Shown piece after piece: positions 3,678 through 59,354 of a stretch of 64,000 nucleotides of DNA. The notes beneath the pieces are model-generated. The model ran no database searches, was not told the DNA's origin, and was given only the letters and a program-made list of their open reading frames with translations. Source of the stretch: Fidelibacterota bacterium TCS55. GTDB taxonomy: Bacteria; Fidelibacterota; Marinisomatia; Marinisomatales; TCS55. The translations under genes and the position numbers were made by a program. Position 1 is the first letter of the stretch; every line of letters begins with the position of its first letter. Location: contig LSCF01000002.1 of assembly GCA_001577025.1 (NCBI GenBank), forward strand, positions 1 to 64,000. Direction: 5' to 3'.

Positions 3678-5354
3678 CTATTTTTTCTGTCCGGATTGAT
3701 TCTGCTTTTCAATCTTAGCCCAGGCATCCCTCAGGGGAACGGTTCGATTAAAGATTGGGAATTCGTTTGTATCTGAATCTTTGCAAAAATACCCCAATCG
3801 CTCAAACTGGACAGGAACGCCCACTTCAGCATTAATCAATGATGGCTCCAGTTTGCATCCATTCATCACCCGGAGGGATTCTGGGTTTAGAGCATCAATA
3901 AAATTTTCTTCCCCATCAGGAGACGGCACCTTAAACAGGCGATCATACAATCTCACCTCAGCATCAACAGCATGATGTGCGGAGACCCAATGCAATGTAG
4001 CTTTTACTTTCCGTCCATCGGGGGCATTACCACCTTTAGTTTCCGGATCGTAAGTGCAATGCAACTCAGTAATAGTCCCATTATCATCTTTAATGACATC
4101 ATTACATGTAATAAAATATGCATATCGAAGTCGCACTTCTCTTCCAGGGCCGAGACGGAAAAATTTCTTCGGAGGGTCTTCCATAAAGTCGTCACGCTCT
4201 ATATATAACTCATTTGAGAATGGTACTTCTCGACGTCCTGCCGATTCATTTTCTGGATTATTTACCGCACTTAACGTTTCCGACTCATCTTCTGGATAAT
4301 TGGTAATCACTACTTTCAATGGGTTTAACACTGCCATCCGTCGTTCACATCGCTTATTTAAATCTTCACGAAGGGTCGACTCCAACTTCGTCACTTCCAT
4401 CACATTGTCCCGCTTGGCTACCCCGATCTCATCCATAAATTTTCTGATGGATGCAGGCGTATAACCCCGCCGTCGATAACCGGATATGGTGGGCATCCGA
4501 GGATCATCCCAACCGGATACATGTCCATCTTCAACCAAGCGTTTTAGTTTCCGTTTGGACATAACCGTATAACTCAAGTTTAAGCGAGCAAACTCAATTT
4601 GTTGCGGATGGTATACATCCAATTCATCTAAGAACCAGTCATAGATGGGCCGATGGTCTTCAAACTCCAAAGAACACAATGAATGGGTAATACCTTCGAT
4701 AGAATCTTCAAGCCCATGGGCCCAATCATACATGGGATAAATACACCAATCATCTTTCGTACGATGGTGATACGCTTTGAGGATACGGTAAATCACAGGA
4801 TCACGCATATTCATATTGGGATGGGCCATATCAATTTTGGCACGGAGGGTCCGTGAGCCATCTTCAAATTCACCATTGGCCATCCGTTGGAATAAATCTA
4901 GATTTTCCGCAACGCTCCGATCTCTAAATGGACTGTCTTCACCTGGCTGGGTTAAAGAACCTCTAGTCTTTCGGATTTTTTCAGGAGTCAAATCACAAAC
5001 GTAAGCGCTGCCTTTGTTGATAAGATCCACCGCATAATCATGCATTTGCTGGAAATAATCCGAGGCAAAGCAGAGATTATCCCACGCATAGCCTAACCAT
5101 TCCACATCCGCTTGTATTGATTGTACAAACTCTTCTTCTTCGGCAATAGGATTCGTATCATCGAACCTGAGATTGCATTTACCCCCAAATTCGTCTGCAA
5201 TGCCAAAACTTAAACAAATGGCTTTTGCATGACCAATATGAAGATATCCATTGGGTTCTGGCGGAAATCGGGTATGCACTCGATTTTCGAATTTTCCAGT
5301 TACATTATCTTCATCGATAATGCGTTGAATAAAATGTCGTGGTTTATTTTCCAT
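3678..5354 (-). CDS. glnS: Glutamine--tRNA ligase
   Basis: A class I aminoacyl-tRNA synthetase charging tRNA-Gln directly. The length of 558 residues is normal for bacterial GlnRS. The catalytic domain starts with [17 protein letters not shown] (HIGH motif, about residues 31-47), and the second signature is VMSKRKL (about 267-273). The C-terminal half has the GlnRS anticodon-binding beta-barrels, ending in a typical [11 protein letters not shown]. Its ATG (5352-5354) shares one base with the TAA of gltX (TAATG), so the two are probably translationally coupled. Many bacteria lack GlnRS and amidate Glu-tRNA-Gln with GatCAB; this organism seems to use direct charging. Confidence 0.97.
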
Positions 5355-55051: not shown

Positions 55052-56253
55052 TTCACTCTCAAAAATCTTCGTTTGCCGACTTTAATCACCATTTCATTTC
55101 CTTTAGAAATAACTAAATCTATATCCGTAACCTTTTCATTATCGATTCGAACTGCGCCTTGTTTCATCATTCTTCGTGCTTCACCTTTACTTTTAGTCAT
55201 TCCGCTATCTGCAATAATATCAATTATTGAACAATTTTTACTTAGAATAATTTCATCCATATCTTCGGGTGCATCTTTATTCACAATCACCTGATCAAAA
55301 TGCTGTTCCGCTTGATGCGCAGCATCTTTGCCATGGTACAGTTCAACCAGTGCTCGGCCTAATGCCCGCTTCACATCTCTCGGATTTACGGTTGTATCAC
55401 TCAATTGCGCTTTCACTTCTGACATGGTTGCTTCATCTGCATCGGCAGCCAATAAAAAATACTTTTCAATCATATCATCAGAAATGGACATGGATTTACC
55501 ATACATATCTTCAGGAGAATCCGTAAGCCCAATATCATTACCATATGATTTTGACATCTTCTCATGGCCATCTGTCCCTTCAAGTAATGGGCAAGTGACA
55601 ATAGCTTGAGGGGATTGATCGTATTCCCGCTGAAGGTCGCGGCCCACAAGTAAATTAAACTTTTGATCTGTACCACCCAATTCTACATCGGCTTGTAATT
55701 CTACAGAATCCATCCCTTGGGCTAGAGGATACATAAATTCATGAATGGAAATAGGTGTTTCAGATTTATATCGTTTTGTAAAGTCATCTCTCTCAAGCAT
55801 ACGGGCCACTGTGTAATGGCTAGATAGGCGTATTACATCACTAAAATTCATAACATTAAGCCAATCAGAGTTATAAACGATTTTTAATGTATCGATATTG
55901 AGAATATGTCCCGCTTGATCAATATAAGATTGTGCATTCGCCTTTGCTTCCTCTAATGTTAATTGGGGGCGCGTTTTATTTCGCCCAGAAGGATCGCCAA
56001 TCATTGCGGTGAAATCACCGATCACGAGTATTGCCTCATGCCCCAAATCCTGAAAATGGCGTAATTTACGAAGAACAACCCCATGACCTACGTGGAGATC
56101 AGGACGACTTGGATCACATCCCAACTTTACCACCAATGGCTTTCCAGTGGATTTTGATTTCTCCAGTTTGGATTTTAAATCATTTTCAGGAATAATTTCT
56201 TCAGCACCGCGGCTGATTAACTCCCATTGTGCATCTACCGATTTAAATGTCAT
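55048..56253 (-). CDS. tyrS: Tyrosine--tRNA ligase
   Basis: A class I synthetase for tyrosine, cytoplasmic, 401 residues. The catalytic core shows HVGHGVVLRKLRHFQ (HIGH region, about 55-69) and HEKMSKSYGNDIGL (KMSKS, about 231-244). A C-terminal S4 RNA-binding domain (about 340-400) has KGEARRMMKQGAVRIDNEKV. The length and the short HVGH motif match the TyrRZ-type enzyme. It overlaps smpB (ATGA) and the phosphatase gene. Confidence 0.95.
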   Translation of the reverse strand: MTFKSVDAQWELISRGAEEIIPENDLKSKLEKSKSTGKPLVVKLGCDPSRPDLHVGHGVVLRKLRHFQDLGHEAILVIGDFTAMIGDPSGRNKTRPQLTLEEAKANAQSYIDQAGHILNIDTLKIVYNSDWLNVMNFSDVIRLSSHYTVARMLERDDFTKRYKSETPISIHEFMYPLAQGMDSVELQADVELGGTDQKFNLLVGRDLQREYDQSPQAIVTCPLLEGTDGHEKMSKSYGNDIGLTDSPEDMYGKSMSISDDMIEKYFLLAADADEATMSEVKAQLSDTTVNPRDVKRALGRALVELYHGKDAAHQAEQHFDQVIVNKDAPEDMDEIILSKNCSIIDIIADSGMTKSKGEARRMMKQGAVRIDNEKVTDIDLVISKGNEMVIKVGKRRFLRVK

Positions 56254-56714
56254 CTTCTTCTATTCCGTAATTCTCTTTGTGCATCACGCTTAATATCTCG
56301 TTCTTTGATGGCATCTTTCTTATCAAAAGTCTTTTTTCCTTTGGCCAATCCAATTTCTAATTTGGCTCTACCCTTGTTATTAAAATATATTTTTAGGGGT
56401 ATAGCCGTCAATCCCTTTTGATCTAGGGATGCCTGTATTTTTGAAATTTCCCTCTTATGGAGCAATAACCTCCGATTTCGTACCGGATCATGCCCTTCAG
56501 TTCCCGTATGGGAATATGGGTTAATATGCACGCCAACCACCCATGCTTGTCCTTTTCGGATCACTACATAGGCTTCCTTTACATTGGCATTACCTTCTCT
56601 GAGACTTTTTACCTCACTACCCAATAATTCAATACCTGCTTCATAGGTATCCAGAATGTGATATTCGTGGAAGGCTTTGCGATTGGTGGCGACAACCTGA
56701 TTATCCATAGTCAA
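56250..56714 (-). CDS. smpB: SsrA-binding protein SmpB
   Basis: The tmRNA partner in trans-translation, which frees stalled ribosomes. The 154 residues have the usual OB-like fold with VATNRKAFHEYHILDTYEAGIEL (given here in part), GSEVKSLREGNANVKEAYV, VRNRRLLLHKREI and the basic C-terminal tail GKKTFDKKDAIKERD... that inserts into the ribosome. The ssrA RNA gene itself was not found nearby. The gene is coupled to tyrS. Confidence 0.96.
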   Translation of the reverse strand: MTMDNQVVATNRKAFHEYHILDTYEAGIELLGSEVKSLREGNANVKEAYVVIRKGQAWVVGVHINPYSHTGTEGHDPVRNRRLLLHKREISKIQASLDQKGLTAIPLKIYFNNKGRAKLEIGLAKGKKTFDKKDAIKERDIKRDAQRELRNRRR

Positions 56715-57176: not shown

Positions 57177-58139
57177 TCAAAATAAATCGTATTTTCCTTT
57201 GTTTGCCCGTTTTACAATATATTGAATTTTCCTATTTACAGATTTGATTTCACTTTTGGTCAAACCGATCTGAATAATATTTCCTTCTTGGCGAACCCCT
57301 CTATTCGGTTTTAGGTTTTTGGTGGGCTCTACCACTTCAACACCATTGTCTGTAACATACAACTGAGCCACAACACCCAATTGCCTATTCAAATCATCCA
57401 GCGTGATGGTTTTTAATTTATCGATGGTCTTTTTCGGTAACTTTTTGACATGGAGATTTCGCCAAATCGTACCTTTATCACTTTCTGGACTACTAAATGT
57501 CACCCCATTATCTACTGAGAATACTCGGGGATTATCCCCATTGATTGAGGTGAGTAAATTTCCTTCGTTACTATCCTTGTGACTAATGATGAAAGTCATG
57601 ATATTGGTATTGGCAAAATGTTTTGCATATACTGCATTCGTATTGAATTTTTCTTTATCATAGATTTCACCCCCAATAGATACTTCATTTAACCAGTATT
57701 GCATCATCACCAATACAACATTTGATTTTTTGAAAGTGGGAACAGCTTCTTTTTCTATGGATAAATATTCTGATAATAGAAATCCTCTTGCTACTGTAGG
57801 CGGCACCACAAAATCACTCTCATCCAGAAATAGTTTTTGTAATTCATAGGCTGCAATTTCAAAACGAGGTGCATTATTAAACACGTGGCCTTCATTTAAT
57901 GCACGACGCCATTTGATTTGCAAATCCTTTCCATCGTCATACTTAAGAATGACTCGTTTCCCAATATCTCCTTTAAATCGTAAATCGCGGAATTTAAAAA
58001 TTTCAAAATCCTCATGGATGAGCTTACGCTCGATTTCGTCTACAGGATAGGTTATATTGACATCTTGTGCCCAAGGAATGCTTAAAACAAAAACTAAGCA
58101 TGCTGGTAAATAAAGTCTGCGTTTACATGAATAAGACAT
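57177..58139 (-). CDS. Exported kinase-fold protein (FAM20/PI3-4K-like)
   Basis: The start at 58139 has a strong RBS (GGAGG) and gives 320 residues with a signal peptide (about 6-24). Residues K76 in LQIKWRR, E99 in the AAYELQKLF helix, the VVPPTVARG strand, the catalytic loop SHKDSNEGNLL (H187, D189, N194) and the metal motif VFSVDNGVTF (D210) follow the order of a protein-kinase-like fold. The DNG form is like FAM20 and PI3/4-kinase relatives. This is unusual for an exported bacterial protein. The substrate is unknown. A lipid, sugar or protein kinase are all possible, as is an inactive relative. Confidence 0.6.
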   Translation of the reverse strand: MSYSCKRRLYLPACLVFVLSIPWAQDVNITYPVDEIERKLIHEDFEIFKFRDLRFKGDIGKRVILKYDDGKDLQIKWRRALNEGHVFNNAPRFEIAAYELQKLFLDESDFVVPPTVARGFLLSEYLSIEKEAVPTFKKSNVVLVMMQYWLNEVSIGGEIYDKEKFNTNAVYAKHFANTNIMTFIISHKDSNEGNLLTSINGDNPRVFSVDNGVTFSSPESDKGTIWRNLHVKKLPKKTIDKLKTITLDDLNRQLGVVAQLYVTDNGVEVVEPTKNLKPNRGVRQEGNIIQIGLTKSEIKSVNRKIQYIVKRANKGKYDLF

Positions 58140-58145
58140 TTCATT

Positions 58146-58151
58146 CCTCCT
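58146..58151 (-). promoter_or_regulatory. Strong ribosome-binding site of the kinase-like gene
   Basis: AGGAGG on the minus strand, six bases before the ATG at 58137-58139, decides that start over the ATG at 58175. Confidence 0.75.
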
Positions 58152-58253
58152 TTTGATGTCTGGACAATTCCACAAATCAATTTAATCATATAGAATAGTG
58201 TCTAAAAAGGTTAATATTCTTCCTCCTGTACCTATACAGCTATAACTTTCATA

Positions 58254-59354
58254 ATGCACATTTTACTTCTTGAACCCTATTTCACAGGGTCCCATCTGGC
58301 TTGGGCTGAAGGGTTGCAAAGCTATTCAAAAAATGAAATTGATATATTGTCCCTAAAGGGTCAATTTTGGAAATGGCGATTGCACGGCGGTGCTGTTTCC
58401 TTAGCAAATCAATTTAATGGCTTAGAACGATCACCCGATTTAATCTTCGCAACGAGCATGCTGGACTTAACAACATTCCTTGCTTTAACACGAAAGAAAT
58501 CAAAGGACATTCCCATCGCCATCTATTTTCATGAAAATCAGCTTTCCTATCCGTGGTCACCTACTGATCGTGACGTCATTGAAAATAGGAATAAACATTA
58601 TGGATTTATCAATTACGCCTCGGCCTTGGCTGCAGATCACGTATTATTTAATTCAAAATACCATAAAAATTCATTTATAAAAGAATCGAAAAATTTGCTA
58701 AAACATTTCCCCGATTATAATGAATTGGACTCAATCTCCGCTATTGAGAATAAGAGCACTGTTCTTCACCTTGGACTTGATCTGAATCGATTTGATCCGT
58801 TTAAAACGAACCATGATGGGCCACCACTTATCCTTTGGAACCACCGGTGGGAATATGACAAAAATCCAGAGGACTTTTTTCACACATTATTCCGGCTTCA
58901 AGATAAAGGAATTGAATTCCAATTGGCGGTACTTGGGGAGAATTTTAAATCGACACCATCCATTTTTGATGAGGCCAAGGAAAAGCTATCTGAAAAGATT
59001 GTCCACTTTGGCTTTTGTAAATCGTTTGAAACCTATGCCCAATGGCTGTGGAATGCGGATATATTACCCGTCACCAATATCCAAGATTTCTTCGGTATCA
59101 GCATTATTGAAGCGATTTATACTGACACATATCCCCTTTTGCCTAATCGGCTTACTTATCCTGAACTACTGCCGGAAAAATACCATAAAAATCACATTTA
59201 TATAGATGAATCAGATCTTTATGAAAAACTCAAATCAGCCATCATGGATATTTCACATGTAAGAACATGTAAATTTTCGGCAATTGCTGAACCATTTGAC
59301 TGGAGTAATATGGCACCAGTATATGACGAGTTATTTTCGACTTTTATAGATTAA
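58254..59354 (+). CDS. DUF3524 glycosyltransferase, QTMAN/GTDC1-like
   Basis: A GT-B glycosyltransferase of 366 residues. The N-terminal DUF3524 domain is clear: MHILLLEPYFTGSHLAWAEGL, KWRLHGGAVSLANQF (given here in part) and IAIYFHENQLSYPW. A GT4-like C-terminal domain (about 180-350) has LILWNHRWEYDKNPEDFF and DFFGISIIEAIY. The vertebrate relative GTDC1 is tRNA-queuosine alpha-mannosyltransferase. Bacterial relatives are known by sequence, and their role in queuosine mannosylation is inference here. No queuosine genes are nearby. The stop overlaps that of the convergent DegT gene, sharing TTAA. Confidence 0.85.
   Translation: MHILLLEPYFTGSHLAWAEGLQSYSKNEIDILSLKGQFWKWRLHGGAVSLANQFNGLERSPDLIFATSMLDLTTFLALTRKKSKDIPIAIYFHENQLSYPWSPTDRDVIENRNKHYGFINYASALAADHVLFNSKYHKNSFIKESKNLLKHFPDYNELDSISAIENKSTVLHLGLDLNRFDPFKTNHDGPPLILWNHRWEYDKNPEDFFHTLFRLQDKGIEFQLAVLGENFKSTPSIFDEAKEKLSEKIVHFGFCKSFETYAQWLWNADILPVTNIQDFFGISIIEAIYTDTYPLLPNRLTYPELLPEKYHKNHIYIDESDLYEKLKSAIMDISHVRTCKFSAIAEPFDWSNMAPVYDELFSTFID

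Follow-up and report, generated by a model that had tools for sequence, protein, structure and literature searches.

Bacterial phosphorylation with ATP is usually taken to be a cytoplasmic matter because ATP is scarce outside, and the bacterial periplasm is normally taken as ATP-free. A gene in the DNA analysed here, a 64,000-nucleotide stretch from Fidelibacterota bacterium TCS55 that we refer to as the window, encodes a protein with both a predicted signal peptide and the motifs of a kinase. This raised the question of whether such a protein could be an active kinase working beyond the cytoplasm, what it would phosphorylate and how it would obtain ATP.

Results

An exported protein with a predicted kinase fold

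The gene (57177..58139, minus strand) encodes 320 amino acids followed by a stop codon, and its open reading frame, alignment, AlphaFold2 model and Foldseek matches together describe a putative exported kinase resembling Fam20 and PI4K. The reading frame is not a chance one, since relatives within the phylum are 60-69% identical, the rates of substitution indicate constraint and the predicted fold matches those of kinases. Against these relatives dN is about 0.2-0.3 and dS is mostly saturated, and selection therefore acts on the kinase protein. The Shine-Dalgarno region (58140..58160, minus strand) places AAAAGGAGGAATGAA ahead of the ATG, with AAAGGAGG read a few bases 5' of the start codon, in agreement with the strong ribosome binding site claimed by the original prediction, which had been made from the sequence of the window. 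The same prediction had proposed a signal peptide, and we find its design in all 20 homologues, as judged by hydropathy and charge. In the window protein the N-terminus is MSYSCKRRLYLPACLVFVLSIPWA followed by QD, giving a positive n-region, a hydrophobic core and an A/QD junction. The coding stretch for residues 1-24 covers 58068..58139 (minus strand), with a cut predicted before Q25-D26 from hydropathy and conservation of the junction. Export of the kinase is thus supported by a conserved predicted signal peptide.

Using an alignment of 20 sequences we obtained an AlphaFold2 model of good confidence (pLDDT 86.8, pTM 0.86), which contains a two-lobed kinase core with strands and helices in the correct order. 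Three N-lobe strands (residues 46-52, 60-66 and 72-79, the last containing K76) precede helix C (91-101, holding E94), and these are followed by strands 115-121 and 141-148, helices 162-167 and 169-184, and C-terminal helices with strands (258-291). A first run with 8 close homologues had given a poor model (pLDDT 56.5), and its structural matches were discarded. The best PDB match of the confident model in Foldseek was Hydra Fam20 (E 3e-7), followed by zebrafish DrFam20C (1e-6), a Golgi casein kinase structure carrying Mn/ADP (1e-6) and PI4KIIalpha (5e-6), each with a probability of 1.00. Fam20 structures occupied ranks 1-6, at a TM of about 0.5 and 11-15% identity, and PI4K, PI3K, DAPK and MK2 kinases were also among the matches. 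The modelled protein thus supports the kinase fold of FAM20/PI3-4K kind that had been proposed. Comparison with Fam20C, PI4K and HipA had been suggested at that stage; the first two were matched and HipA was absent from the 50 best structural matches listed.

Sequence comparison gave a fainter picture of the same kind. PDB sequence searches with the kinase returned no real match, and the Fam20 profile PF06702 was silent across the genomes of the phylum and equally in the control genomes, so that its silence carries no weight. PF00454 matched weakly in 16 of the 20 family members (best 2.7e-5), and TIGR03843, the SCO1664 family, in 17 (best 1.9e-6), across the catalytic and metal loops. For the window protein the scores were 16.0 bits with PF06702 (curated cut-off 26.8), 16.5 with PF00454 (27.1) and 17.2 with TIGR03843 (172.4). 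The profiles alone therefore stay under every curated cut-off, as evidence that is weak but consistent with a kinase.

Within the predicted active site K76, E94, H187, D189, N194, D210 and N211 are invariant across 20 homologues from two phyla, down to 37% identity. The Lys/Glu pair, the catalytic aspartate with an asparagine five residues on, and the metal aspartate were found in all 20. The catalytic loop, H187-K-D189-S-N191-E-G193-N194 (57558..57581, minus strand), is also invariant at N191 and G193, and in the metal motif D210-N211-G212 (57504..57512, minus strand) position 212 is otherwise conserved and is serine in two of the 20. K76, D189, N194 and D210-N211-G212 had all been placed correctly by the original prediction, but its helix-C glutamate, E99, had to be rejected, as residue 99 varies between E, Q, R, K, A and I. 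The alignment instead identifies E94, within the motif N-N-x-P-R-x-E, as the invariant helix-C glutamate. Five residues before it N89 is also invariant in the 20 sequences. Neither of the two outcomes named at the outset as fatal to the original prediction, a fold lacking the kinase core and variation at K76, D189 or D210 among homologues, was observed.

An optional gene in two phyla

Of the 245 genomes of the window's phylum, Marinimicrobia (Neomarinimicrobiota), 9 encode close relatives of the kinase at 60-69% identity; these 9 include the window's own genome and belong to two genera of one family. In a second phylum the family is present in 8 of 82 genomes, and a single genome can contain as many as five copies or fragments; relatives sought in phages, plasmids and viral contigs were not found. 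In the tree, taken as unrooted, the Marinimicrobia sequences form one supported group, and their neighbours are the second-phylum copies of G396 and G397. From the sequences, this placement fits a transfer between phyla. One Marinimicrobia-type copy lies on a contig labelled Thaumarchaeota archaeon SAT137 (L007) and gives a match equal to that of L006 from Neomarinimicrobiota; the contig probably owes its archaeal label to faulty binning. At another locus, L049, a shortened second kinase copy lies near a full copy (792-1223 and 4108-5118, plus strand), separated from it by a gene for a Pkinase/PD40 protein.

In the Marinimicrobia loci that we read, the kinase gene stands between smpB and a gene of the tRNA-queuosine alpha-mannosyltransferase family. 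In the window Pfam identifies the latter as a divergent neighbour (58254..59354, plus strand; PF12038, 199 bits) and smpB on the other flank (56250..56714, minus strand), with a tRNA-Leu and a GIY-YIG gene between kinase and smpB (ARAGORN, Pfam). We regard both flanking genes as context. The order of mannosyltransferase and kinase is kept in L002, L005, L056 and L057. The same flanks are found in three sister-species relatives, G091, G092 and G095, with the kinase missing, an empty site, and the kinase is therefore an optional gene. In the window organism it stands alone among housekeeping genes, and neither there nor in its relatives does a phosphatase or transporter gene adjoin it.

Linkage to an exported phosphatase in the second phylum

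In the second phylum the surroundings of the gene are different. Six of the eight kinase carriers have a PPP phosphatase gene near a kinase copy, adjoining it or one gene away. The exported phosphatase lies directly downstream on the same strand in L046, L048, L051, L053 and L054, with a gap of about 20 bases or less, or an overlap, and in L045 it follows one gene after the kinase, with a transporter gene between. Six of the twelve full-length loci (L044, L047, L049, L050, L052 and L055) have no adjoining phosphatase gene, and in most of these the genome has another, linked kinase copy. Across genomes the phosphatase is present in seven of eight kinase carriers (G415 being counted from its locus), whereas at most one of the 74 other genomes of that phylum has it (Fisher p about 2e-9 to 2e-8, kinship ignored). 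The sole match in a non-carrier, G408, is weaker and differently built.

Among solved structures the catalytic domain of this phosphatase is closest to the Shewanella PPP tyrosine phosphatases (E about 1e-63). It resembles that of the Shelphs, the Shewanella-like group of PPP phosphatases (PMC535813), and matches Shewanella PPI, but the protein differs from Shelphs in having some 110 additional residues at the N-terminus and in its linked kinase gene. In G420 the phosphatase lies elsewhere, downstream of a different protein. Here a gene for a membrane-anchored PI3/PI4-kinase-like protein (G420:C74; L074 2997-3914, minus strand, the same as L090 5570-6487, minus strand; PF00454 34.1 bits, above the cut-off) is directly upstream of the same exported phosphatase type, making this a second kinase type paired with it. 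A profile comparison of the window kinase family with this protein was not significant. The window genome (G000) contains one Shelph that we could find, shorter and distant (G000:C3; L078 1333-2382, plus strand), with a signal-peptide-like start and on a separate contig from the kinase. Such short Shelphs do not co-occur with the kinase, G095 and G097 having one while the kinase is absent.

A possible ATP carrier

In L044 and L045 the kinase gene is followed by one for a TLC-type ATP/ADP carrier-like protein with HEAT repeats (PF03219, 29.8 and 21.3 bits, cut-off 21), so that the order in L045 is kinase, carrier, phosphatase. These two TLC carriers stand in the genomes whose kinase copies are closest to that of the window. 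In the second phylum a carrier was present in 7 of 7 sampled kinase carriers against 14 of 74 other genomes (p 3e-5). We take this as weak support for a module, because the carrier family is widespread: it is common in both phyla, a TLC-like carrier occurs in 20 of the 22 Marinimicrobia genomes searched whether or not they have the kinase, and it scores far below true NTP/NDP exchangers. A relative of the TLC-HEAT type is also encoded in the window genome, elsewhere from the kinase (G000:C48:5594-6853, plus strand).

Discussion

What might the kinase do?

Our favoured reading, which we hold with some but not great confidence, is that the gene encodes an active exported Fam20/PI4K-like kinase that phosphorylates a target in the cell envelope or a secreted one. 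A cleaved signal peptide would take the protein across the inner membrane; there K76 and E94 would hold ATP, D189 would act as the base, N194 and D210 would serve for the metal, and the phosphate would pass to the envelope or secreted target. In the second phylum the exported Shewanella-like PPP phosphatase of the same gene cluster may remove it again, and the TLC-type carrier may deliver ATP. Use of ATP by exported enzymes has a precedent, as bacteria export alarmone synthetases that consume it (PMC12691689). We infer the activity itself, the substrate, whether protein or glycan, the supply of ATP, and that the Marinimicrobia copy works in the same way with no adjoining phosphatase. The adjacency of kinase genes to an exported phosphatase, and sometimes to an ATP-carrier-like transporter, suggests reversible phosphorylation outside the cytoplasm, and we tentatively propose that some bacteria possess such a system, built from kinase, phosphatase and ATP-supplying carrier, though we think the complete system somewhat doubtful.

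Within the favoured reading the nature of the substrate allows a variant that we consider possible though less likely than not, namely that the enzyme phosphorylates a small molecule or an envelope glycan or lipid, with a specificity like that of Fam20B or PI4K. Fam20B is a xylose kinase, which is the more ancient of the animal activities (PMC5865150); in structure a Fam20B-like Hydra Fam20 matches best, with PI4KII next, and PF00454 is the commonest profile match. However, the characterised enzymes nearest to the partner phosphatase are protein-tyrosine phosphatases. We think it unlikely that the protein is instead an exported pseudokinase, or a kinase fold that does not phosphorylate but binds nucleotide or some other ligand beyond the cytoplasm, AMPylates or carries out some other transfer. 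The usual scarcity of ATP in the periplasm would suit such a protein, as would the replacement by N89 of an acidic residue of active Fam20 (PMC5865150); SidJ, a polyglutamylase with a kinase fold, was matched weakly, and by the discarded model alone. Against this, invariance of the canonical catalytic and metal residues, E94 included, at such low identity would be unusual for a pseudokinase, and co-occurrence with a phosphatase favours phosphate transfer.

It is rather improbable that the kinase is released and works outside the cell, where other microbes or a eukaryotic partner might be its targets. In favour of this are the signal peptide, with no retention anchor that we could recognise, the possibility of extracellular ATP as donor and the parallel of the exported alarmone synthetases (PMC12691689); against it, we recognised no additional secretion tag, and the gene lies among housekeeping genes. 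A functional partnership with the queuosine mannosyltransferase or with SmpB can be dismissed as very improbable despite the conserved position of the kinase between them, because the same flanks enclose kinase-empty sites in three genomes, both proteins do their work in the cytoplasm and the kinase genes of the second phylum have different surroundings.

Comparison with known kinases

Returning to the active exported kinase that we favour, the closest likeness is to animal Fam20, which includes the xylose kinase Fam20B and the Golgi casein kinase Fam20C. The two share a predicted fold, a non-cytoplasmic site, the beta3 lysine, the catalytic aspartate and the metal aspartate, and E94 takes the place of E218, the canonical helix-C glutamate of worm Fam20. 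Fam20 proteins have four conserved disulfides (PMC5865150), in contrast to the zero to two cysteines per mature chain of the window family, none of them common to all. Active Fam20 also carries an acidic residue five positions before the helix-C glutamate (E213 in the worm protein) that matters for activity, and the pseudokinase Fam20A has glutamine at that position (PMC5865150); assuming that E94 aligns with E218, N89 replaces this residue. With roughly 11-15% identity and a score under the PF06702 cut-off, the window protein is a fold relative of Fam20 and not a member, since it lacks both the conserved cysteines and the acidic residue specific to Fam20.

PI4KII shares the Asp-x4-Asn catalytic loop and is the second-best structural match, and PF00454 is the profile matched most often, but the window protein falls under the gathering score and is soluble and exported. 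The SCO1664 family is matched weakly by 17 of 20 members, and the window protein stays far below its cut-off, at 17 bits where 172 are required. Bacterial atypical kinases near the Fam20/CotH group were already known (PMC9758233, PMC12189002); the CotH spore-coat kinases and the Legionella families that cluster with FAM20/CotH belong to the same broad branch. CotH is a Bacillus spore-coat protein, and the window family has no CotH profile match. We found no report of a CotH or Legionella-family kinase in a cluster with phosphatase and carrier, nor, in a literature survey whose scope left out most subscription journals and preprints, a paper that describes those partners for an exported Fam20-like kinase of bacteria.

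A signal-peptide-bearing Fam20-like kinase, an exported phosphatase and sometimes a carrier-like transporter offer a defined set of genes with which the idea of phosphorylation in the bacterial envelope can be tested. If our reading is true, this would be a bacterial counterpart of the phosphorylation in the secretory pathway of animals, and would bear on the origin of the animal secretory kinases.
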